Shown here: piece by piece, positions 12,941-22,515 of the stretch
How the letters are laid out: each line of letters starts with the position of its first letter
Position numbering within the stretch: the first letter of the stretch is position 1
Assembly: GCF_025150745.1 (NCBI RefSeq)
Contig: NZ_CP102282.1
Location: forward strand, 631,501 to 695,500
DNA length: 64,000 nt
Direction: 5' to 3'
Source: Eubacterium ventriosum
GTDB taxonomy: Bacteria; Bacillota; Clostridia; Lachnospirales; Lachnospiraceae
The notes under the pieces: model-generated
What the model saw: the letters and a program-made list of their open reading frames with translations, nothing else
Databases searched by the model: none
Told to the model about the DNA's origin: nothing
Position numbers and translations under genes: made by a program

Positions 12941-12982
12941 TAGAAAAAAATTAAAATATCTATGGAAAAAATGGAGGGAAAA

Positions 12983-13564
12983 ATGAACAAAATGGAGAAA
13001 AACAGTAGCGAAAAACTATTAAAACAACTTATTGCAACATTAAAGATGGAAGGAAACCAGATGCCGGGCGGTGTTCTGGAAAGCGATGATTATAACATAA
13101 TAATCATTAAACCAAATCAATTACAACAGGAGAATGCCGGAGAAAAGCAGAGTAGAAAATACAATGAATCGTACAGTGAAAATCAAAGAGAGAATTTTGA
13201 TGATTTGTATGGAGAACGAAAAGGCAAGAAAGAGTTAGAGAATATCATTTCAAGGAAGCTTATAGGACTTGGCATACCGACTAGATTAAAAGGTTATAAA
13301 TATATACTGGCAGCAATTGAGCAGGTTTTAGAAGATGAAACATCACTGGAAGGTGTAACTAAGATACTTTACCCGGATGTTGCAAAGAAATATAATTCGA
13401 CACCTCAAAGAGTAGAAAAAGCCATTAGGCATGCAATAGAAGTTGCATGGACAGATAATGTAGTAGAACTTAGACGTGAATTTGAGGATGGCAGAGAAAA
13501 CAGACGCCCCACAAATTCAGAGTTTATATCAAGAATAAGTACATATATAAAAATGACAGCATAG
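12983..13564 (+). CDS. Stand-alone Spo0A C-terminal-type DNA-binding protein
   Basis: 193 residues. The C-terminal ~105 residues closely follow the Spo0A effector domain: IGLGIPTRLKGYKYILAAIE, TKILYPDVAKKYNSTPQRVEKAIRHAIEVAW and RPTNSEFISRIS are near-matches to the Spo0A DNA-recognition region. The N-terminal half has no phosphoacceptor receiver domain; it is charged and probably disordered apart from a short helix at the start. It should therefore bind 0A-box-like DNA without phosphorelay input. GGAGG at 12973-12977 decides for the ATG at 12983 over the one at 12962. The divergent S24-type repressor may control it. Confidence 0.88.
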   Translation: MNKMEKNSSEKLLKQLIATLKMEGNQMPGGVLESDDYNIIIIKPNQLQQENAGEKQSRKYNESYSENQRENFDDLYGERKGKKELENIISRKLIGLGIPTRLKGYKYILAAIEQVLEDETSLEGVTKILYPDVAKKYNSTPQRVEKAIRHAIEVAWTDNVVELRREFEDGRENRRPTNSEFISRISTYIKMTA

Positions 13565-13686
13565 ATGGGGAAGATATTCATTGAAGCGAAAAGTAGCCGT
13601 ATGCCAAAGGAGAGGCGAAAAGGCAGGCAGTAAGGATGAATATTGATATATAGAAATGTGAATATAGAAAGTTAATGAATTAGTTG

Positions 13687-13727
13687 AAGGATACCGTGTG
13701 GAGGCTAGTGCCACACGGTATCCTTTT
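13687..13727 (+). terminator. Strong hairpin terminator before repeat array A
   Basis: A perfect 15-bp stem (AAGGATACCGTGTGG at 13687-13701 with 13711-13725), 9-nt loop, then TTTT. It is followed by a G-rich linker and, 44 nt after the stem, by the first palindrome of array A; array B has the same arrangement. Confidence 0.85.
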
Positions 13728-13769
13728 GTGCATAGTGGGGGAGGGAAATAAGTTAAGCAATTGAGTAGC

Positions 13770-14183
13770 GTACCCAGAGAAATGTAAAAAATAAAATGTC
13801 GGGGTACGTTTTCGGTGAATAGGAGTGTGCTGAAGCCACAATAAGTGATGTACGAGAAGGTGCGTACCCAGAGAAATATAAAAAATGAAATATCGGGGTA
13901 CGCGACCACCAAAAAGCAAGGAAAATATGAAACATAATGTATGAGAAAGACGGAAATGTACCCCGAAAAAGGCGAAAAATGAAATAGCGGGGTACAAAGC
14001 CACTAAAAAGCAAGGAAAATATGAAACATAATGTATGAGTAAAGCGAAAATGTACCCCGAAAAAAGTCAAAAATGAAATGTCGGGGTACGCAAACACCAA
14101 AAAGCAAGGAAAATATGAAACATAATGTATGAGGAAGACGAAAACGTACCCCGAAAAAAGTTAAAAATGAAATAGCGGGGTAC
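13770..14183. repeat. Array A: five 38-bp palindromes at exact 94-bp period
   Basis: Units at 13770, 13864, 13958, 14052 and 14146, each 38 bp, with arms of the form GTACCCCGA...TCGGGGTAC (the first two have a slightly altered left arm, GTACCCAGA) around a 20-nt A-rich centre that is itself conserved. The four spacers are all 56 bp; spacers 2-4 are almost identical to one another, while spacer 1 belongs to another type also found in array B. No ribosome sites or plausible genes lie inside; because 94 is not a multiple of three, the long minus-strand reading frames here are by-products of the repeat. Confidence 0.95.
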
Positions 14184-14610
14184 GCGACCACCAAAAAGGC
14201 AAGAAAACAACCACAACAAATAGGGAAATAAGCAAATGTTGTGGTATGAAACAGAAAAAATAGAGCAAGAAGAAACAATTTTACCCTACCCACCATGCCC
14301 ACGCTGTTTTTTACAATTCCAACAATTGTTTTACATAGATTTAATCTTTCCCGCACTTTGGTTTTAACAATGAATCTCTAGAATAGCAGATGATAAGACT
14401 TATCAATAAGGATTCTATATGAAATACATTCAGGAGTACCGAGGAATAATAAAGGACATTAAGGAACAGTAAGGATATCAAGTAACACTGATGAATAGCA
14501 AAGAATACTAAGAAATATTCAGGAATAACAAAGAACATCAGGTAATACTAAGCTATACCCTAGAATGTATTAGGAGAGTTGCCGAGAAGGCAGAAGGAGA
14601 AAAGATTAGA
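14184..14610. other. Intergenic region with inverted repeat and degenerate short repeats
   Basis: ACCACAACA (14210-14218) and TGTTGTGGT (14237-14245) form a hairpin. From about 14390 to 14570 there are many degenerate copies of a short word of the type AAGGAATA / CAGGAATA spaced 13-16 bp apart. No gene is seen. The ribosome site for the following gene (AGAAGGAGAAAAG) is at its end. Confidence 0.5.
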
Positions 14611-16734
14611 ATGAGAAAGAAGAAAATTACACAAATTTCAGCAATCGCTATGGCTATGGCAATGGCAGTAACTCCAACAGCAAATGTTTTTGCTTATGGA
14701 GAAACATCAGGAAACAGCACATTGTTCTCTGACACACAGAAGGTTTCAGATTATAGTACTTGGAAAGATTCAGTTTGGAATAAAAAAGATACAGAAGGAA
14801 CTCTTACAAGAAAAGGTGAAGCTTACGATTCATCAAAAATAATTCTTACACCCGGTAAGACAGCAAAGGATTTAGGCTTTGCTTGGTATAGCGAAAACAA
14901 GGGCACACCGGCAGTTAAAGTAGGAAAGAAAGCTGATTTAAGCGATGCAAAAGTTTACACAGGAACAGCAACAGACATTAATCGTTCAAATCAGAAAACT
15001 ACATATAAAGCATCAAACAAAGTAACTATAGAGGGTGCTTTTGAAGAAAATACAACATATTACTATAGCTACACAGATGACACAAAAAATCCTAATTGGA
15101 GCGAAGCACAGGCTTACACAACAAAGAAAACATCCAGTTTCCAGACAATACTTGTAGGTGACCCACAGATTGGTGCATCAGGATCACAGGGACAGGGAAC
15201 AGATGATGATATTAATATTGCAGTTGATACATTTAACTGGAACAAAACATTAACACAGGCAAAAGCAACAGCACCTAATGCAAGTTTTATTTTATCAGCA
15301 GGTGACCAGATTGACTTCTCAGGAGTTGACAGTTCAGACGGAAAAAACGTAAGAGAAAGCGAATATGCAGGATTTACATATCCGGAACTTTTGAGAAATC
15401 TTCCTTTGGCAACAACAATCGGTAACCACGAAAGCAAGGGTACAGACTATAAGTATCACTACAACAACCCTAACGATGGCGACAAACTTGGAAGCACAAA
15501 CTCAGGTTCAGATTACTACTTTAGCTACGGTGATGTTTTGTTTATCAGCTTAAACAGTAACAACAGAAACACAGTTGAACACAAAGAATTATTAAAGAAA
15601 GCAGTGGCAAGCCACAAAGATGCTAAGTGGAAAGTTGTAATGTTCCATCATGACATTTACGGTTCAGGACAGCCACATTCAGACACAGACGGAGCAAACT
15701 TAAGAGTGCTTTTCGCACCATTAATGGACGAATTTGGAATTGATATATGTTTGACAGGACATGACCATTCATATGCAAGATCATATTTAATGGCGGACGG
15801 CACAGCAATTGACTACGGAAATTCAGTTGCAGTAAACCCTGAAGGAACACTTTATATTGCAGCAGGTTCAGCATCAGGTAGTAAGTTCTACAAACTTGCA
15901 ACAACAAAACAGTACTACATTGCAGAGCGTTCAAATACACAGATTCCAACATTCTCTACAATTGATTTTTCAGAAAATTCACTTGTACTCAGAACATATG
16001 ACTACAACGGAAACAAGTACGCAGACGATTATACACTTTACAAAACAAGTGATAATTTATCAATGAAAGATTTGATTGCTCAGGCAAAAAATATCAAAAA
16101 CGATGGTTACACAGATGAAACTTGGAACAAGCTCCAGAGCGAAATCAAGAGTGCAGAAAAGTTAATGCAGTACACCGGCGAAGACAAGGGGGCAGCACAG
16201 CTTTCAAGTGCATATGACAAGACTAACGACGGCGACAATGCTAAGGACATGGTTAACTACTACGGTTACGCACAGGGCGATTACAAAAAAGATGGAACAA
16301 CAACACTAAAGACAGGTTTTTCAACATTGCTTGACAAGACAATGGACAAAAAACTTATCATAGGAAGATTACTTTTTGAAAACCAGTACAACAATATCCT
16401 TAAGGCAGAAGCAGGCTTAAAGAAAAAAGATGCTGGAAAGACAACAACTCCTACAAATACAACAAAACCGGCAGCTAAGCTTACATTAAAAGCCGGCAAA
16501 AAAGCAGTTAAGGCAGGCCAGACAGTTACTTTGAAGAAGGGCAAAACATTACAGCTTAACCTTACAATCAACGGAGTAACAGGCAAGAATGTTAAGTACA
16601 AAACTTCAAACAAGAAGATTGTAAAAGTTACCGCAACAGGAAAACTCAAAGCTTTAAAGAAGAGCAGCAAGAAAGTGAAGGTAACGGCAAAATTCGGAAA
16701 CCAGAAGATTAGCTTTAAGGTGAAGACAAAATAA
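14611..16734 (+). CDS. Secreted metallophosphatase, purple-acid-phosphatase-like, with Ig-like tail
   Basis: 707 residues. A signal peptide (MRKKKITQISAIAMAMAMA.., cleavage near residue 28) is followed by a fibronectin-like N-domain of purple acid phosphatases (about 80-170) and a calcineurin-type metallophosphoesterase domain (about 175-460) with all metal-binding blocks: GDPQIG, AGDQID, GNHES, FHHDIYG and GHDHSYAR. A helical region follows, and then a Lys-rich Big_2-like Ig domain (about 620-707, with TLKKGKTLQLNL and VKYKTSNKKIVKVTATGKLKAL) that probably binds the cell surface. Likely releases phosphate from extracellular organic phosphates. Monocistronic as far as visible. Confidence 0.9.
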   Translation: MRKKKITQISAIAMAMAMAVTPTANVFAYGETSGNSTLFSDTQKVSDYSTWKDSVWNKKDTEGTLTRKGEAYDSSKIILTPGKTAKDLGFAWYSENKGTPAVKVGKKADLSDAKVYTGTATDINRSNQKTTYKASNKVTIEGAFEENTTYYYSYTDDTKNPNWSEAQAYTTKKTSSFQTILVGDPQIGASGSQGQGTDDDINIAVDTFNWNKTLTQAKATAPNASFILSAGDQIDFSGVDSSDGKNVRESEYAGFTYPELLRNLPLATTIGNHESKGTDYKYHYNNPNDGDKLGSTNSGSDYYFSYGDVLFISLNSNNRNTVEHKELLKKAVASHKDAKWKVVMFHHDIYGSGQPHSDTDGANLRVLFAPLMDEFGIDICLTGHDHSYARSYLMADGTAIDYGNSVAVNPEGTLYIAAGSASGSKFYKLATTKQYYIAERSNTQIPTFSTIDFSENSLVLRTYDYNGNKYADDYTLYKTSDNLSMKDLIAQAKNIKNDGYTDETWNKLQSEIKSAEKLMQYTGEDKGAAQLSSAYDKTNDGDNAKDMVNYYGYAQGDYKKDGTTTLKTGFSTLLDKTMDKKLIIGRLLFENQYNNILKAEAGLKKKDAGKTTTPTNTTKPAAKLTLKAGKKAVKAGQTVTLKKGKTLQLNLTINGVTGKNVKYKTSNKKIVKVTATGKLKALKKSSKKVKVTAKFGNQKISFKVKTK

Positions 16735-16783
16735 ACATAAAAATTCTAATAGGTGAAGACAAAATAAACATAAAATTTCTCAT
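16718..16783. repeat. 33-bp tandem duplication across the stop codon of the metallophosphatase gene
   Basis: The 33 bp beginning AGGTGAAGACAAAATAAACA at 16718 are repeated at 16751 with few changes, so the last codons and the stop are duplicated into the 3' flank. Coding is not altered. Confidence 0.85.
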
Positions 16784-16858
16784 AAGTGTGTTGAAAATGT
16801 CGAAAGACAAAATTGAGTCAGAGACAGGCTCAAAAAAGAAAAAGTAGAAGGATTTAAG

Positions 16859-17965
16859 ATGAAGAAATATTCAAAGATTATATTTGTTATTTTTCTCATA
16901 ATCTTCTCAGCAGGACTTTGGTTGTTGAACTCCAACATAACCAGAGTCCCTTTGCTATCCGATGACAATTTTTATTTTGTTAAGGGGCAGGTGCAGGAAG
17001 TTATTGAGGACAATACCACAAATAAAGAGGTAAACGGCGGTAGCCAAACTGTAAAAGTTAAGATAACATCAGGAAAATATAAAGGAAAAACCTGCGAAGC
17101 CAACAATATGAATGGCTATCTTTACGGAACTTACTGCAAAAAAGGGACAAAAGTAATTGTTCAGTTAAGCAGTTTTGGCGAAGAACTGTCGGGCAGCATT
17201 TACGGCTTTGACAGGGGAGCTTTTATTTGGATTATTATAGCAATACTTGGAGTGGCACTATTCCTGGTTGGCGGAAAAAGAGGCATTAAATCAATGCTGG
17301 CGTTGGTGTTCACATTTATATGCATTATATATTTGTACATACCGCTAATGTATATAGGTTTTTCGCCATTCTGGGCGGCTATTCTTGTTGTAGTTGCGGT
17401 TACAATAGTGTCGGTTTATCTTATTTGCGGAGGCAACCGAAAAGGGTTGTGCGCAATGCTTGGAACAATTCTGGGAGTCCTAATTGCAGGAATTTTTGCA
17501 ACTATTTTTGGAAAAATAACGCGAGTGACAGGCTACAATATTGAAGACATTGAGACTATGGTCTACGTGGCGCAGAACAGCAAACTTCAGATAGGTGGCG
17601 TGCTTTTTTCGGGCATCCTTATTGCGTCCCTTGGGGCTGTAATGGACGTGGCGGTTTCCATATCCTCAACCATTGAAGAAATCCACAACAAAAAGCCGGA
17701 GCTTACATCAAAAGAATTGTTTAAGTCAGGCATAAATGTTGGCAAAGACATGATGGGAACAATGTCAAACACACTTATACTTGCTTTTACCGGTGGCGCA
17801 GTAAACACTATGATATTAATATACGCCTACATAATGCCATACCTGCAGGTAGTGAATATGTACTCAATAGGCATTGAGGTGATTAAAGGCATCTCAGGCA
17901 CACTAGGCATAGTGCTGACCGTGCCACTGGTGTCGCTGATATCGGCGAAGGTGTATGGCAAGTAG
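16859..17965 (+). CDS. YibE/F-family membrane protein
   Basis: 368 residues. An N-terminal membrane anchor (about 7-25), an extracytoplasmic beta-rich domain (about 35-120, VKGQVQEVIED..YKGKTCEANN), then about seven membrane spans with LVGGKRGIKSMLALVFTF and ASLGAVMDVAVSISS..EI, both typical of the YibE/F (PF07907) family. The function of the family is not established; a transporter role has been proposed. Ribosome site AAGGA sits 6 nt before the ATG. The sequence at its 3' end is duplicated in tandem downstream (17945-18032). Confidence 0.9.
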   Translation: MKKYSKIIFVIFLIIFSAGLWLLNSNITRVPLLSDDNFYFVKGQVQEVIEDNTTNKEVNGGSQTVKVKITSGKYKGKTCEANNMNGYLYGTYCKKGTKVIVQLSSFGEELSGSIYGFDRGAFIWIIIAILGVALFLVGGKRGIKSMLALVFTFICIIYLYIPLMYIGFSPFWAAILVVVAVTIVSVYLICGGNRKGLCAMLGTILGVLIAGIFATIFGKITRVTGYNIEDIETMVYVAQNSKLQIGGVLFSGILIASLGAVMDVAVSISSTIEEIHNKKPELTSKELFKSGINVGKDMMGTMSNTLILAFTGGAVNTMILIYAYIMPYLQVVNMYSIGIEVIKGISGTLGIVLTVPLVSLISAKVYGK

Positions 17966-18032
17966 TGGGGGAGATGTGCTTCCGGTTGGCGAAGGTGCAT
18001 GGCAAGTAGTGAGGGAGATGTGCGTCCGGTTG
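17945..18032. repeat. 44-bp tandem duplication spanning the stop codon of the YibE/F gene
   Basis: Two 44-bp copies (17945-17988 and 17989-18032) beginning GCGAAGGTG and ending CCGGTTG differ at only a few bases; a third copy starts and breaks off. The first copy contains the end of the gene with its TAG stop. Downstream copies are non-coding. Confidence 0.88.
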
Positions 18033-18067
18033 GCGAAACACTATTGGAAACGCAAGAGAAGCTAAAG

Positions 18068-18108
18068 AAAGCATACTCTGGGGCGAAACGCCTCCAGAGT
18101 ATGCTTTT
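18068..18108 (+). terminator. Strong hairpin terminator before repeat array B
   Basis: AAAGCATACTCTGG (18068-18081) pairs with 18094-18107, and the inner GGCG/CGCC extends the stem across one bulged base; a T tail follows. Its geometry, the motif CTTTTGTGC just after it and the distance to the first palindrome match the hairpin before array A, although the stem sequences differ. Confidence 0.85.
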
Positions 18109-18151
18109 GTGCGTGGTGGGGGGAAGAGTGTGGATGGTGTGGTGGAGGGTT

Positions 18152-18753
18152 GTACCCCGAGAAATGGCAAAAATAAAATGTTGAGGTACGTTTTTGGTGA
18201 ATAGGAGTGTGCTGAAGCCACAATAAGTGAAGTGTGAGGAGGCGCGTACCCCGAGAAATGTTAAAAATAAAATGTTGGGGTACGTTTTTGGTGAATAGGA
18301 GTGTGCTGAAGCCATAATAAGTGATGTACGAGAAGGCGCGTACCCCGAGAAATATAAAAAATGAAATGTCGGGGTACGCAACCGCTAAAAAGCAAGGAAA
18401 ATATGAAACATAAAATATGAGTAAAACGAAAATGTACCTCGAAAAAAGTTAAAAATGAAATATCGGGGTACGCGACCACTAAAAAGCAAGGAAAATATGA
18501 AACATAATGTATGAGGAAGACGGAAATGTACCCCGAGAAAAGCAAAAAATGAAATAGCGGGGTACGCTACCACCAAAAAGCAAGGAAAATATGAAACATA
18601 ATGTATGAGAAGGACGGAAATGTACCCCGAAAAAAGCAAAGAATGAAATGTCGGGGTACGCAACCGCTAAAAAGCAAGAAAAATATGAAACATAATGTAT
18701 GAGCAAGACGAGAATGTACCCCGAAAAAAGCGAAAAATGAAATGTCGGGGTAC
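18152..18753. repeat. Array B: seven 38-bp palindromes at exact 94-bp period
   Basis: Units start at 18152, 18246, 18340, 18434, 18528, 18622 and 18716, every one 94 bp after the last. Arms GTACCCCGA / TCGGGGTAC, with single-base decay in units 1, 2 and 4. Spacers are all 56 bp; the first two are the type that contains GAATAGGAGTGTGCTGAAGC, the rest the type containing AAAAAGCAAGGAAAATATGA, the same order as in array A. Array B thus looks like a longer copy of A. No genes inside. Confidence 0.95.
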
Positions 18754-18900
18754 AAAGCCACCAAAATAAAGAATTGACAATAGTATCCCCATAATAATTG
18801 ATATAAAAGATAAAATATAGGTATCAAAAAATATGTATACATAGTATAATATTATATGTATCAAGAAATACAAATATAGAAGAAAGGAGGATAAGGCAGG

Positions 18901-19734
18901 ATGGATTATTTAGAAAAGTATGCACAGGAAAGATTAGAAAAGCTGAAAGGTATGCGAAGACAATGTGTGGCTAATTTGAAAGGTTTGCCGGAAGGAAAAG
19001 TGTATGTAAAAAAGAAGCGAAAGACAAATCAATTCTATAAGATAACGCCAGACGGGGACAGAAATGGGAAGTATATTAAAGCCGGCGAAAGAGATGTGGC
19101 AGAAAGTCTTGTGAAAAGGGAATACAATGAGAAGTGCTTAAAGGAGATAGAAAAAGAAATTAGGGCACTAGAAAAAATGCTAAAAACCTGCAATTCAGAA
19201 AACCTAGAAAATGTAATCAGCAAGCTTGCCCCGGTCAAGCAGACAATGGTTATGCCGCTGGTATTGCCACGAGAAGATTTCATCAAACAGTGGGAAGAAG
19301 AAAAGCAGCAACTTAAAGAAAAAATGTGGTCAATGGTTATGAAATCTTATGATGAATCCATGGACGACGAAGAAGGCGTGTTCACGGAAAAAGACGAAAA
19401 GGTTCGCTCCAAGTCAGAAAAAATAATTGCAGACAAACTCAATCTAATGGGGATACCGTACATATATGAGTTACCGCTACATTTGGATGGACTAGGTTAC
19501 ATAAAACCAGATTTCACAGCATTAAATCCGGACACCCGCGAAGAATGCATATGGGAGCATTTTGGAATGATGGAAAATCCGGAATATGCGTCAAAGGCAA
19601 TGAACAAACTAAATGTTTACGCAAGAAACGGCTATACTGTGGGGGACAATCTTATAATTACAATGGAAGGTCAAAGCCAGCCTTTGAACACAAGAAATCT
19701 TGATAAAGTAATTAGAAAAAATTTGATGACATAA
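18901..19734 (+). CDS. PD-(D/E)XK-like nuclease-fold protein of unknown role
   Basis: 277 residues. The N-terminal half is charged and helical (about 1-110: coiled segment, a beta hairpin with KVYVKKKRKTNQFYKITPDG, which resembles a small nucleic-acid-binding or substrate-like fold). The C-terminal half has the order of a PD-(D/E)XK nuclease core: E173 in RSKSEKIIADKL, D204 in KPDF, and E219 in IWEHFGM followed by K and Y-rich helix (KAMNKLNVYARNGY). The 'WEH-[LF]-G' form occurs in nuclease-like domains linked to helicases and phage proteins. Good ribosome site AAGGAGG. It starts 147 bp after array B; no partner gene is obvious. Nuclease activity is an inference. Confidence 0.75.
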   Translation: MDYLEKYAQERLEKLKGMRRQCVANLKGLPEGKVYVKKKRKTNQFYKITPDGDRNGKYIKAGERDVAESLVKREYNEKCLKEIEKEIRALEKMLKTCNSENLENVISKLAPVKQTMVMPLVLPREDFIKQWEEEKQQLKEKMWSMVMKSYDESMDDEEGVFTEKDEKVRSKSEKIIADKLNLMGIPYIYELPLHLDGLGYIKPDFTALNPDTREECIWEHFGMMENPEYASKAMNKLNVYARNGYTVGDNLIITMEGQSQPLNTRNLDKVIRKNLMT

Positions 19735-19821
19735 TAAAAAGAAGTTATGGTATTGATTGCGTCACCAACGGTGATGTAATTAGGAAAAAAAGTTAAATAT
19801 TGGAATGAAATAAGGGGAGAG

Positions 19822-19851
19822 ATAGGCAACTGTGAAAGGTTGCCTATTTTT
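19822..19851 (+). terminator. Terminator after the PD-(D/E)XK-like gene
   Basis: ATAGGCAAC (19822-19830) pairs with GTTGCCTAT (19839-19847), followed by TTTT. Confidence 0.8.
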
Positions 19852-19891
19852 GAGCAAAAAAAAGAAATTTAGATTCAAATAGGACAAAATT

Positions 19892-19919
19892 TTTTGAAAA
19901 ACGATTTCAGTGCTATAAT
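19892..19919 (+). promoter_or_regulatory. Extended -10 promoter of the YczE/YitT-type gene
   Basis: TGCTATAAT at 19911-19919 is a consensus extended -10; TTTTGA at 19892 is a weak -35 at 16 bp. It lies 24 bp before the ATG of the membrane protein gene. Confidence 0.55.
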
Positions 19920-19942
19920 ATTATCTGGAAAGAAGGCAAAGA

Positions 19943-20665
19943 ATGAATAATAAGAGTCCTAACAAGAAAATAATAAGGGGGATTATATACATTACCGGTT
20001 TGCTGACGTTGGCACTGGGAATTATTTTGAATACCAAGGCGGGCTTGGGAGTTTCGCCCATTATATCGGTGTCATACAGCATTTCGCAGATTATGAAAAT
20101 CAACTTCGGAAATATGACATTCATACTGTATGGGATTTTTGTGGTTATTGAATTTATACTCCACATGATAATTAACCATCGCAAAAAATCCAAAGGACAA
20201 AATTATAATTTGAAAAAAATGTTATTGATGGACGCTTTGCAGTTCCCGTTGAGCTTCTTTTTTACAAGATTTATGAATTTGTTTTCAGCGTATATACCAA
20301 ATTTTGAGGAAGATATGCTGGGGACCGTGTGGGGAACGATGCCAGTGAGAGTGCTGGTGTTACTGGTTGCCATTGTGCTGACGGGAGTTGGCGCGGCAAT
20401 GTCCCTTGATATGAGAATTATTCCAAATCCCGGGGACGGAATTGTGCAGGCGATTTCCGACTTTGTGGGCAAAGATGTTGGCCTTGTAAAGAATTGTTTT
20501 GACGTGTTTAACATATGTCTTACAACTGTGATGTGCCTTGTTTTTATAGGTCACATAGTGGGCATTGGAATTGGAACAGTAATCGCGGTAATCGGCGTTG
20601 GTCGAGTAATTGCAGCGTTCAACTTTGTGTTTATGAAGAAATTTGTGAAACTTGAAATTGAATAA
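19943..20665 (+). CDS. YczE/YitT-type integral membrane protein
   Basis: 240 residues with five to six hydrophobic spans. Starts with a cationic stretch then YITGLLTLALGIILNTKAGLGVSPI, the hallmark of the YczE/YyaS/YitT group, and later SLDMRIIPNPGDGIVQAI and a Gly/Ile-rich last span (GIGIGTVIAVIGVGRVI). The biochemical role of this family is unknown to me. Ribosome site is weak (AAGAAGG). Single gene between its own promoter and terminator. Confidence 0.85.
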   Translation: MNNKSPNKKIIRGIIYITGLLTLALGIILNTKAGLGVSPIISVSYSISQIMKINFGNMTFILYGIFVVIEFILHMIINHRKKSKGQNYNLKKMLLMDALQFPLSFFFTRFMNLFSAYIPNFEEDMLGTVWGTMPVRVLVLLVAIVLTGVGAAMSLDMRIIPNPGDGIVQAISDFVGKDVGLVKNCFDVFNICLTTVMCLVFIGHIVGIGIGTVIAVIGVGRVIAAFNFVFMKKFVKLEIE

Positions 20666-20679
20666 GGAAGCATTCTTGG

Positions 20680-20720
20680 AAAAATAACCGTTTAGACCGA
20701 AAGGCTGGACGGTTATTTTT
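20680..20720 (+). terminator. Terminator after the YczE/YitT-type gene
   Basis: AAAAATAACCGT pairs with ACGGTTATTTTT across an imperfect loop, ending in a T-run. Confidence 0.8.
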
Positions 20721-20812
20721 GTGGAAGCTGGTGATAAATAAAGGTTTAGACAGGTTTTGTGTGAATTGAACTATATATTTGTTATGTGAAATGAATGGTG
20801 GTTTGGGCATGC

Positions 20813-21318
20813 GTACCTCAAAAAATGGAAAGAAGAAATGTCGGGGTACATTTTTAACAAATACAAACTATATGTTGTGCAAAAACAGCGGTAGTTTGAG
20901 AATGTGTACCCCAAAAAACAAGAAAAAAGAAATGTCTGGGTACGTTTTTGACGAATACAAACTATATGTTGTGCAAAAACAGCGGTAGTTTGAGAATGTG
21001 TACCCCAAAAAACAAGAAAAAAGAAATGTCGGGGTACGTTTTTGACGAATACAAACTATATGTTGTATAAAACAAGCTGAAATTAGGGCGAGCGTACCCC
21101 GACATTTTAAAATTGTGAAAATTTGGGGTACAAAGCCATAAAAAACTATAAAAATTAAGACGCATATTATATGTAGAAACAAGAAACGTACCCCGAAAAT
21201 TAGACAAAATGAAATATCGGGGTACGGAAGAAATAAAATAGTTGCAAATGCAACATATAATGAAAACAAAAATGAAAAACGTACCCCAATATTGCGAAAA
21301 CCTCAAATATTGAGGTAC
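20813..21318. repeat. Array C: six diverged palindromes, 93-94 bp period
   Basis: Units at 20813 (37 bp), 20906, 21000, 21094, 21188 and 21281 (38 bp each). Spacers are 56, 56, 56, 56 and 55 bp. Arms GTACCCC..GGGGTAC are kept while the rest differs: units 1-3 have a different A-rich centre from A/B, unit 4 (21094-21131) is in the opposite orientation, and spacers 3-5 share little with each other. Despite this, spacing is held to within one base. Confidence 0.92.
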
Positions 21319-21342
21319 GCGATCGGCAACGGTCACATAAGA

Positions 21343-21540
21343 AAGCTTCTCCACTCCCCCACACTACAGCCTCTAACGCCTTATATCTCATCCGCCCCAC
21401 GACACAACAAGCTTCTCCGCTCCCCCACACTACAGCCTCTAATGCCTTACATCTCATCCGCCCCACGACACAACAAGCTTCTCCGCTCCCCCACACTACA
21501 GCCTCTAACGCCTTACATCTTATCCACTCCACGACATAAT
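21343..21540. repeat. 66-bp tandem repeat, three copies
   Basis: Copies start at 21343, 21409 and 21475, each beginning AAGCTTCTCC and differing by a few bases. The repeat is much richer in G+C than its surroundings. As 66 is a multiple of three, several frames on both strands stay open through it, but none has a ribosome site; I treat it as non-coding. It lies beyond the terminator of the minus-strand J-domain gene. Confidence 0.88.
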
Positions 21541-21623
21541 CTACAACACTATGCCGTTCATCCACTTTAAGCCATAACGTCCAACACTAAACATCTAACA
21601 TCACTCCCTCCCCACTACGCAAA

Positions 21624-21692
21624 ACACCCCTGCCGAACCAACCACGGTGTCCTGTGGCAGACAGGACACCGTAGAAGCTTCCCAGCAGGGGT
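21624..21692 (-). terminator. Terminator of the minus-strand J-domain operon
   Basis: Nested stems: ACGGTGTCCTGT with ACAGGACACCGT inside, ACCCCTGC with GCAGGGGT outside. Reading on the minus strand it is followed by GTGTTTTG. It lies about 70 bp past the J-domain stop codon. Confidence 0.75.
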
Positions 21693-21722
21693 AAATAAAA
21701 CACAATAATATTAAAATCGAAT

Positions 21723-21770
21723 AATACTAGCAACAATACTAGCAACAATACTAGCAATAATACTAGCAAC
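21723..21770. repeat. 12-bp tandem repeat (four copies) over the stop of the J-domain gene
   Basis: AATACTAGCAAC (one copy ends AAT) repeated four times at 21723, 21735, 21747 and 21759. Read on the minus strand each copy is TG(T)-TTGC-TAG-TAT-like, so the Cys codons and the TAG stop of the gene are reiterated in its 3' flank. Confidence 0.9.
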
Positions 21771-22515
21771 AGCACATGTTAAGCAAACATAATGTTGTGC
21801 AAGGATCAGCGCAACACATTGCACCGGAATCGCCACCATATGAATACTGGCGGGTGTTGTACCACTGACCACCACTTTCAAGTGTCTGGACAAGTCGCTG
21901 GTATGTCTGATTGTTAGGCTCCATTTCAAGAGCAGTTTTTGCAAAATCAAGAGCCATGACATTGTTACCTAGACCGTTGTTTGCCAAAGAACTTAAGAAA
22001 TACCACTGAGCGGTACGGTCCTGAATATTGCTCAGGACATTTAAAGCTTCCTGAAAACGCCTATTGTTAATGTAGTTAGAAGCAGCAGTGTAATAGGAAG
22101 CATCCTGACCGTAATACTGGCTGGACTGTCCCTGCCCACTGTTAAAACCGCCGAAGCCTCCAAAACCACCAAACAAATCATCAAAAGGATTGCCGGAATA
22201 ACCACCACCGTAGTTGCCGTTACCTGAACCACCGTAGGCAGAACCACCATTACCATAGCCACCGGAACCATAACTGCCGGAACCGTAGCCACCATAAGAA
22301 CCACCATAGCCACCTGAATAACCATTCTTACGCTCATCCATAATCTGATTGTAAGCCTGACCAACTAACTTAAACATCTCCTCCGCCTTATCCTTATTAG
22401 GATTGTTAATATTAGCATCGGGATGATACTTGCGACTTAATTTTCTATATGCCTGTTTTACTTCATCATCTGTGGCATCTCGTGAAATGCCAAGAACCTT
22501 ATATGGATCACTCAT
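21763..22515 (-). CDS. J-domain (DnaJ-like) protein with Gly-rich linker, TPR-like region and Cys-rich tail
   Basis: 250 residues. Residues 1-65 are a J domain with the essential HPD at 31-33 (RKYHPDAN) and QAYRKLSRKY, so it should stimulate an Hsp70 (DnaK). Residues 70-130 are a Gly/Tyr/Ser linker; 140-215 contain a TPR-like helical pair (RRFQEALNVLSNI, ALDFAKTALEMEPNN). The tail has eight Cys within 25 residues (CCADPC..LC..CCC), which could bind metal or be a lipid-attachment-like patch. No DnaJ zinc-finger domain, so it is a specialised co-chaperone. Third gene of a minus-strand operon with DUF5685 and zinc-ribbon genes, whose arrangement recurs in related Clostridia as far as I recall. 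Confidence 0.88.
   Translation of the reverse strand: MSDPYKVLGISRDATDDEVKQAYRKLSRKYHPDANINNPNKDKAEEMFKLVGQAYNQIMDERKNGYSGGYGGSYGGYGSGSYGSGGYGNGGSAYGGSGNGNYGGGYSGNPFDDLFGGFGGFGGFNSGQGQSSQYYGQDASYYTAASNYINNRRFQEALNVLSNIQDRTAQWYFLSSLANNGLGNNVMALDFAKTALEMEPNNQTYQRLVQTLESGGQWYNTRQYSYGGDSGAMCCADPCTTLCLLNMCCC

Follow-up and report, generated by a model that had tools for sequence, protein, structure and literature searches.

The stretch of Eubacterium ventriosum DNA analysed here (64,000 nucleotides, contig NZ_CP102282.1, positions 631,501 to 695,500; hereafter the window) carries three arrays of palindromes repeated every 94 bp and, between two of them, a gene for a 277-amino-acid protein resembling PD-(D/E)XK nucleases. 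Our analyses point to an undescribed system consisting of a protein and its DNA arrays. We think it probable that the arrays are double-stranded recognition sites of the PD-(D/E)XK-like family, phased on the DNA helix, and that the sites are multiplied by the protein itself. Sequence comparison establishes the anatomy of the arrays, their association with the gene, the quantisation of their periods in helical turns, the tracking of these periods along the protein tree and the conservation of the half-sites, as well as, within the limits given below, the fact that dispersed arrays occur together with a home gene; binding, dimer formation, nuclease activity and protein-driven spread are what we infer from these patterns.

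The arrays of the window and the gene between them

The elements concerned lie at the following positions of the window:
13770..14183, plus strand: array A, five palindromic 38-bp units with a period of 94 bp
18152..18753, plus strand: array B, seven units with a period of 94 bp, its end lying about 148 bp before the start of the nuclease-like gene
18901..19734, plus strand: gene P0001 for the 277-amino-acid PD-(D/E)XK-like protein, the candidate array binder, between arrays B and C
20813..21318, plus strand: array C, six units at 93/94 bp, between a plus-strand gene and a minus-strand gene (convergent)

Our recount of the units, 18 in total, agrees with the original prediction, which was made from the letters of the window and listed 5, 7 and 6 of them. 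Units start at 13770, 13864, 13958, 14052 and 14146 in array A and from 18152 to 18716 in array B, every step being 94 bp; the starts in array C (20813, 20906, 21000, 21094, 21188 and 21281) are 93, 94, 94, 94 and 93 bp apart, and the remeasured unit positions also bear out the claimed spacers of 55–56 bp. The arms are less uniform than first described: GTACCCC...GGGGTAC is exact in only 11 of the 18 units, and it is the shorter core GTACC...GGTAC that all 18 contain. Exact units nevertheless number 11 in the window versus none in 100 shuffles. Across the whole genome, a single contig of 2.86 Mb, there are 41 exact copies of the palindrome and 67 copies of the 38-bp form with at most two mismatches, with none for the reversed control. 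The stretches fetched around them include 14 arrays of at least three units, all at 94 ± 1 bp; among the start-to-start distances of neighbours within arrays, 45 of 49 are 94 bp, three are 93 and one is 95. The copies are thus clustered at a fixed period rather than single or randomly spaced, and, as far as tested, they match no known transposon or REP family.

Upstream of the gene at 18901–19734, array B gives an autocorrelation of 0.91 at a lag of 94, and we read it as the home array of that gene. When proteins encoded beside arrays of the E. ventriosum genome were compared with those beside arrays of its sister species, the only matches came from loci whose gene neighbourhoods are shared (L001, L002 and L059; L numbers denote loci) and from the open reading frame at 18901–19734. 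The family to which this protein belongs is unannotated, PD-(D/E)XK-like and widespread in gut Clostridia, occurring in 51 of 150 genomes of the same taxonomic family, Lachnospiraceae by the label of the sister contigs, and 17 of 291 of the class, the E. ventriosum genome being counted in both. P0001 has no match above cut-off in Pfam or NCBIfam, and no Pfam family is common to more than two of the 31 members scanned; its C-terminal residues 161–273, by contrast, match the PADLOC model PDC-S68 with E = 2.7e-26. PDC-S68 models match all 31 of the members scanned, and the model HEAT_CxxC_PDDEXK matches 20; we found no paper on the name PDC-S68. Among 53 aligned members (P0001 included), the first 160 residues are less conserved and the invariant positions include E173, Y189-E190, P203-D204-F205, E219-H220, G222, Y229 and E256. 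E173, P203-D204 and E219 resemble the conserved acidic active-site residues of the PD-(D/E)XK superfamily. The usual motif has a lysine at the position corresponding to H220, and this family has a histidine in its place. Four plasmid records have only the C-terminal domain in common with the family, in AAA or RecD-like proteins where annotated.

Periods, half-sites and dispersal in relatives

The association of gene and array was assessed at 71 loci, the best-scoring ones of a longer list (24 from the genus, 29 from the family and 18 from the class), an array being called when the autocorrelation reached at least 0.50 within 700 bp of the gene. A strict-period array lies beside 52 of the 71 genes (53 with L178) and in none of 85 control windows; these replace an earlier upstream-array control (25/225), dropped because its loci had been selected for arrays. 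The arrays are upstream at 48 of the 69 testable loci and downstream at 9 of the 71, with L118, L158, L166 and L183 having one on the downstream side only. In the genus, 23 of the 24 genes studied have an upstream periodic array at the 0.50 level, and L118 has its downstream one. Omitted from the counts were L178 (a simple repeat), L153 and L154 (too little upstream DNA) and the partial genes L125, L132 and L140; a 74-bp array lies near L132.

The sequence of the half-site is not constant. Read by eye from 20 of the 24 genus loci, half-sites comprise GTACC, CTGTACCATA, AATTACGTGT, TTACATGC, GCACCCAC, GTGCACCC, GGGCATATA and TGCATAGA, and further TAGGTGG, TAGTAGC, ATTCGTA and CTACGAG; the other four loci (L120, L121, L123 and L134) have GTACC arrays. 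Inspection by eye also places the gene-array modules of L136, L151, L165, L124, L135 and L141 3' of genes resembling those of ribosomal protein S9 and EF-Tu.

What is shared across the family is the relation of the period to the helix. With one exception, discussed below, the 52 arrays have periods of 52–54, 62–65, 71–75, 83–86 or 94 bp, corresponding to five to nine helical turns. With periods of at least 100 bp halved before the test, the resultant R at 10.5 bp is 0.80 when clusters are formed at 90% identity (51 clusters) and 0.73 when they are formed at 50% (24 clusters), and none of 5000 uniform draws was as high; when the helical repeat is left free, its optimum for identity cuts between 0.9 and 0.4 is 10.15–10.35 bp. 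On a tree of 53 proteins, the period class changes 13 times, compared with 23.6 in shuffles, none of 200 being as low. One clade has 14 of 15 members in the six-turn class, and in another all 10 members with a period are five-turn; half-sites vary inside both. The recurrence of near-whole-turn periods across the gene family lends support to the earlier proposal that the units are sites for a protein, all on the same side of the helix, as does the retention of half-sites in diverged orthologous arrays of the sister species. That part of the proposal is supported; partition, nucleoid or anchoring, the roles that it named, may or may not apply. What it overlooked was the gene in the window that seems to go with the arrays, the presence of the same module elsewhere with other half-sites and periods, and the dispersal throughout the genome.

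In the sister species, the half-site consensus of 97 distinct units is about RGYGTACCNTR, inverted and 33 bp apart around an A-rich centre. Four sister species have a period of mostly 64 or 65 bp and a spacer of 26 bp, occasional steps being 63 or 66 bp or roughly double the period. At one locus, the gap 3' of a gene whose product has Fer4_20 and Pyr_redox domains holds a 94-bp array in E. ventriosum and a 64/65-bp array in three sisters. The two arms of the units do not covary as those of a conserved hairpin: in 62 E. ventriosum units no variable position pairs above shuffles, and in the 97 sister units position 6 alone is in weak excess (about 2% of shuffles are as high), while at positions 10–12, owing to the A-richness of one strand, pairing is below that of almost all shuffles. 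For want of covariation, the units look like double-stranded half-sites rather than RNA hairpins. A further motif, TATGTTG[CT], stands exactly at one fixed place in 8 of 19 E. ventriosum spacer clusters and near it in about six more, a count not reached in any of 500 shuffles. We considered it as a third half-site and set this aside: at other offsets it also flanks some sister arrays, so it may be a separate site. A motif near GCAACATAATGTATGAA is likewise found at a fixed place in many E. ventriosum spacers and close to some sister arrays: GCAACATAATGTATGAA-like motifs flank the arrays L041, L047, L049, L099, L100, L102 and L113 and, in sister home loci, stand by eye beside promoter-like sequence.

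Dispersal was examined for two half-site types, GTACC and GCACCC. Palindromes of the GTACC type are numerous in 5 of 23 genus genomes (G000, which is E. ventriosum itself, and G004, G007, G008 and G010; G numbers denote genus genomes), and the other 18 have at most five of the 38-bp form, the five in G017 all being single; longer units of other sequence were sought in G007, G010 and G017 and the GTACCCC form in 60 relatives. Within the limits of these patterns, every one of the five genus genomes that have a GTACC-type gene showed GTACC arrays, and the remaining 18 showed none (Fisher 3e-5). Matches to the protein at E up to 1e-8 number 3–5 in the five array-bearing genomes versus 0–2, a few of them partial, in the 18 others (one-sided Mann-Whitney 0.00016, uncorrected for kinship). 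GCACCC palindromes number 55 in G007 and 18 in G017, and it is in these two genomes that the gene has a GCACCC home array upstream; those of G007 are on 13 contigs and, among the matches listed, mostly 63 bp apart. Elsewhere there are 14 in G010 (six in its own GCACCCAC home array and eight outside) and one each in G004 and G008, and the reversed control gave none in all five genomes. The lone palindrome of G004 (contig C33, near 59057) is about 720 bp past the 3' end of a family gene, L138. The array of that gene is now built on a different half-site, which looks like the replacement of one site type by another. Gaps with arrays are 23 tandem, 20 convergent and 1 divergent, compared with 36, 9 and 18 for other gaps of 150–1500 bp at the same loci, genes being simple open-reading-frame calls (Fisher 0.0003 for divergent and 0.0007 for convergent gaps).

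Beyond the genus, the 64-bp pattern, which is blind to 94-bp arrays, gave seven matches across 397 family genomes, by eye unrelated GTACC repeats. A scan of named genomes for GTACCCC pairs returned 21 stretches, four of them from sister metagenome-assembled genomes (RUG11188 twice, RUI397 and Tb.RUG.215) and the remaining 17 being other GTACC repeats without the unit and spacing of the window arrays. Lentisphaerota strain zth2 has four copies of another GTACC-rich dispersed repeat with a different unit and period (L012, L015, L018 and L031). In viral contigs, the 64-bp lattice pattern matched two stretches resembling GC-rich chance repeats, the 94-bp lattice pattern matched none, and a search with the 277-amino-acid protein found no close relative. 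A phage link may exist, since the protein has matches in 3 of 50,697 phage records. One of them, MT839528.1 ("Bacteriophage sp.", 4.2 kb), encodes a full-length relative, matching over 99% of the protein at 33% identity.

Several other features were noted. A distinct 66-bp tandem repeat of 2.9 copies (21343–21536) directly follows array C, and a short protein with a Spo0A C-terminal DNA-binding domain is encoded at 12962–13564, adjoining array A. A promoter scan of 13500–22000 found 15 promoters versus 22.7 in shuffles, and dnaA lies at about 516 kb in the genome. Four further palindrome pairs, 167–168 bp apart, are a different repeat. A second repeat in G000 has pairs of 38–39-bp palindromes about 167 bp apart with TTATGTAAAC-like motifs in between, and its loci are:
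G000:C1, about 14676 (L001), 273253 (L005), 293659 (L055), 1043410 (L074), 1435539 (L075) and 2767129 (L011): second-repeat loci

A candidate mechanism and its rivals

We suggest that each unit consists of two half-sites in inverted orientation (GTACC in the window), probably bound by a dimer, and that the repetition of units at whole helical turns (nine here; five, six, seven or eight in relatives) would align the bound proteins along one side of the DNA. A given protein lineage would tend to hold its period class, with half-sites diverging between lineages. Within a locus, arrays may multiply by whole periods. Three of the four periods of array A that were compared match periods of array B, about 4 kb away, at 0.91–0.94 and the fourth at 0.86, so that copying between the two is visible in the sequences. 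Across the genome, arrays would spread into gaps that mostly lie 3' of genes; recombination started by the nuclease at its own sites would be the simplest route. Going further, we tentatively entertain, while leaning slightly the other way, that this is a new class of selfish or domesticated element of Clostridia, one that reads phased pairs of half-sites, shifts its half-site and number of turns, and spreads arrays.

A number of points weigh against recognition arrays that the protein itself multiplies. Neither side of the gene has an array at 16 of the 69 testable loci at the 0.50 level, although five of these score 0.42–0.49, and in the class-level set an upstream array is present at only 8 of 18. 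One array falls off the helical series with a period of 57.5 bp, half the length of its 115-bp unit, and an identity cut of 35% leaves two clusters, making the helical test empty there. In the three diverged orthologous array pairs scored, the half-site columns are 0.96, 0.97 and 0.92 identical, against 0.62, 0.63 and 0.42 for other columns; this counts in favour, but the half-site columns were chosen as exact in either sequence and the alignment may be anchored there. The window protein and the GTACC-type proteins of the sisters are in different clades, yet they have the same GTACC half-site. Most of the 18 array-free genomes were scanned with the 38-bp and GTACCCC forms only and could contain 39-bp versions, and the five genomes with arrays could be closely related to one another. 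Finally, the PD-(D/E)XK assignment is based on residues and on the names of PADLOC models, and a search of solved structures gave nothing significant, its four weak matches having E values of 0.5–0.72 and three of them being endonuclease I.

Among the alternatives, we consider a regulatory or addictive role unlikely but the most serious. The array would then be an operator or decoy that keeps a harmful nuclease-like protein under control, and the arrays scattered elsewhere would titrate it or enforce dependence; the position of most arrays directly upstream of the gene is as expected, and so is the C-terminal domain that all the members scanned have in common with candidate defence proteins. 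Arrays of up to about 13 units (the span of L109), however, go far beyond an ordinary operator, the scanned proteins beside E. ventriosum arrays are mutually unrelated, and four loci have their array downstream only. It is less probable still that the arrays serve chromosome architecture, being bound at gene 3' ends by a nucleoid, topoisomerase or insulator protein, as gyrase binds BIME-2 in Escherichia coli. The orientation bias of the array gaps favours such a role, but that bias could reflect tolerance alone; the 104 sister periods show no marked 10.5-bp periodicity of A/T, the finding of GTACC arrays in just 5 of the 23 genomes of the genus speaks against a general need, and the association with the gene is left unexplained.

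We give very little credence to a repeat RNA, such as the antitoxin RNA array that precedes the toxin gene in type III toxin-antitoxin systems. Tandem repeats do precede a nuclease-like gene here, and of 10 sister arrays flanked by tandem genes, 9 carry the A-rich sequence on the coding strand. The RNA alternative offered in the original prediction is nonetheless disfavoured by the arm-pairing test, and we set the hairpin reading aside on that test and on the helical quantisation, which is unexpected for RNA; furthermore, no Rfam family is found in the window at gathering thresholds, and many arrays have no such gene alongside. An ordinary, functionless minisatellite, its period constant through tandem duplication, is similarly improbable: Tandem Repeats Finder does list the window arrays, and the similarities of adjacent periods, many of them 0.83–0.91 identical, and of A to B are what duplication would leave, but neighbouring window units at 0.45–0.56 identity still keep their 94-bp spacing, in line with the earlier remark that spacing is constant despite diverging spacers, the half-sites are kept while the remaining bases diverge, periods are quantised across families, and many loci have both half-site and period in common.

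Should recognition by the PD-(D/E)XK-like family be the right explanation, an unannotated, widespread gene family gains a testable DNA partner, and odd repeats become a system with measurable rules, namely near-whole-turn periods, a class that follows the protein, and variable half-sites. The relatives would then offer a natural series of protein-site pairs for the study of recognition and helical phasing.

Comparison with known systems

We did not find this system in our searches of the open-licence literature, in which two surveys of REP sequences were checked for named terms. In contrast to a CRISPR array, the units here vary and spacers recur within and between arrays; the scan of flanking proteins showed no cas genes. 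Tandem units, each with an inverted repeat, also make up plasmid centromere arrays such as F sopC, where a single protein reads them, with one array per replicon and ParA/ParB genes. Here, there are many chromosomal arrays and a nuclease-like gene; the flanking proteins scanned include no parA/parB-like genes, and no genome-wide par search was made. The PDC-S68 candidate defence proteins of PADLOC have a homologous C-terminal domain, yet their models are about 1200 positions long, while the protein here is short, with an N-terminal part of its own and accompanying arrays.

The BIME-2 arrays of E. coli are described as intergenic palindrome arrays bound by gyrase (PMC6379681). The arrays here are intergenic palindrome arrays, too. 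To our knowledge, BIME-2 has no cognate gene alongside and no quantised period.

A parallel in logic is offered by the REP/RAYT modules (REPtrons) and REPINs, in which dispersed extragenic palindromes are reported to be tied to a cognate enzyme gene, with co-evolution of the two (PMC8266576, PMC3116915). As in those modules, dispersed extragenic copies of a palindrome accompany the gene here, for two half-site types. The parts are different, however: RAYTs are HUH enzymes acting on single-stranded hairpins, while the protein here is PD-(D/E)XK-like, matching PADLOC models of that type and no transposase family; the arms in E. ventriosum units are without covariation, and sister units show at most a weak excess at one position and are anti-paired at core positions; and the spacing is fixed in whole helical turns. 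The best reading of this comparison is a logic resembling that of REP/RAYT built from unrelated parts, which, if true, would be a second, unrelated bacterial route by which a palindrome can spread through a genome.

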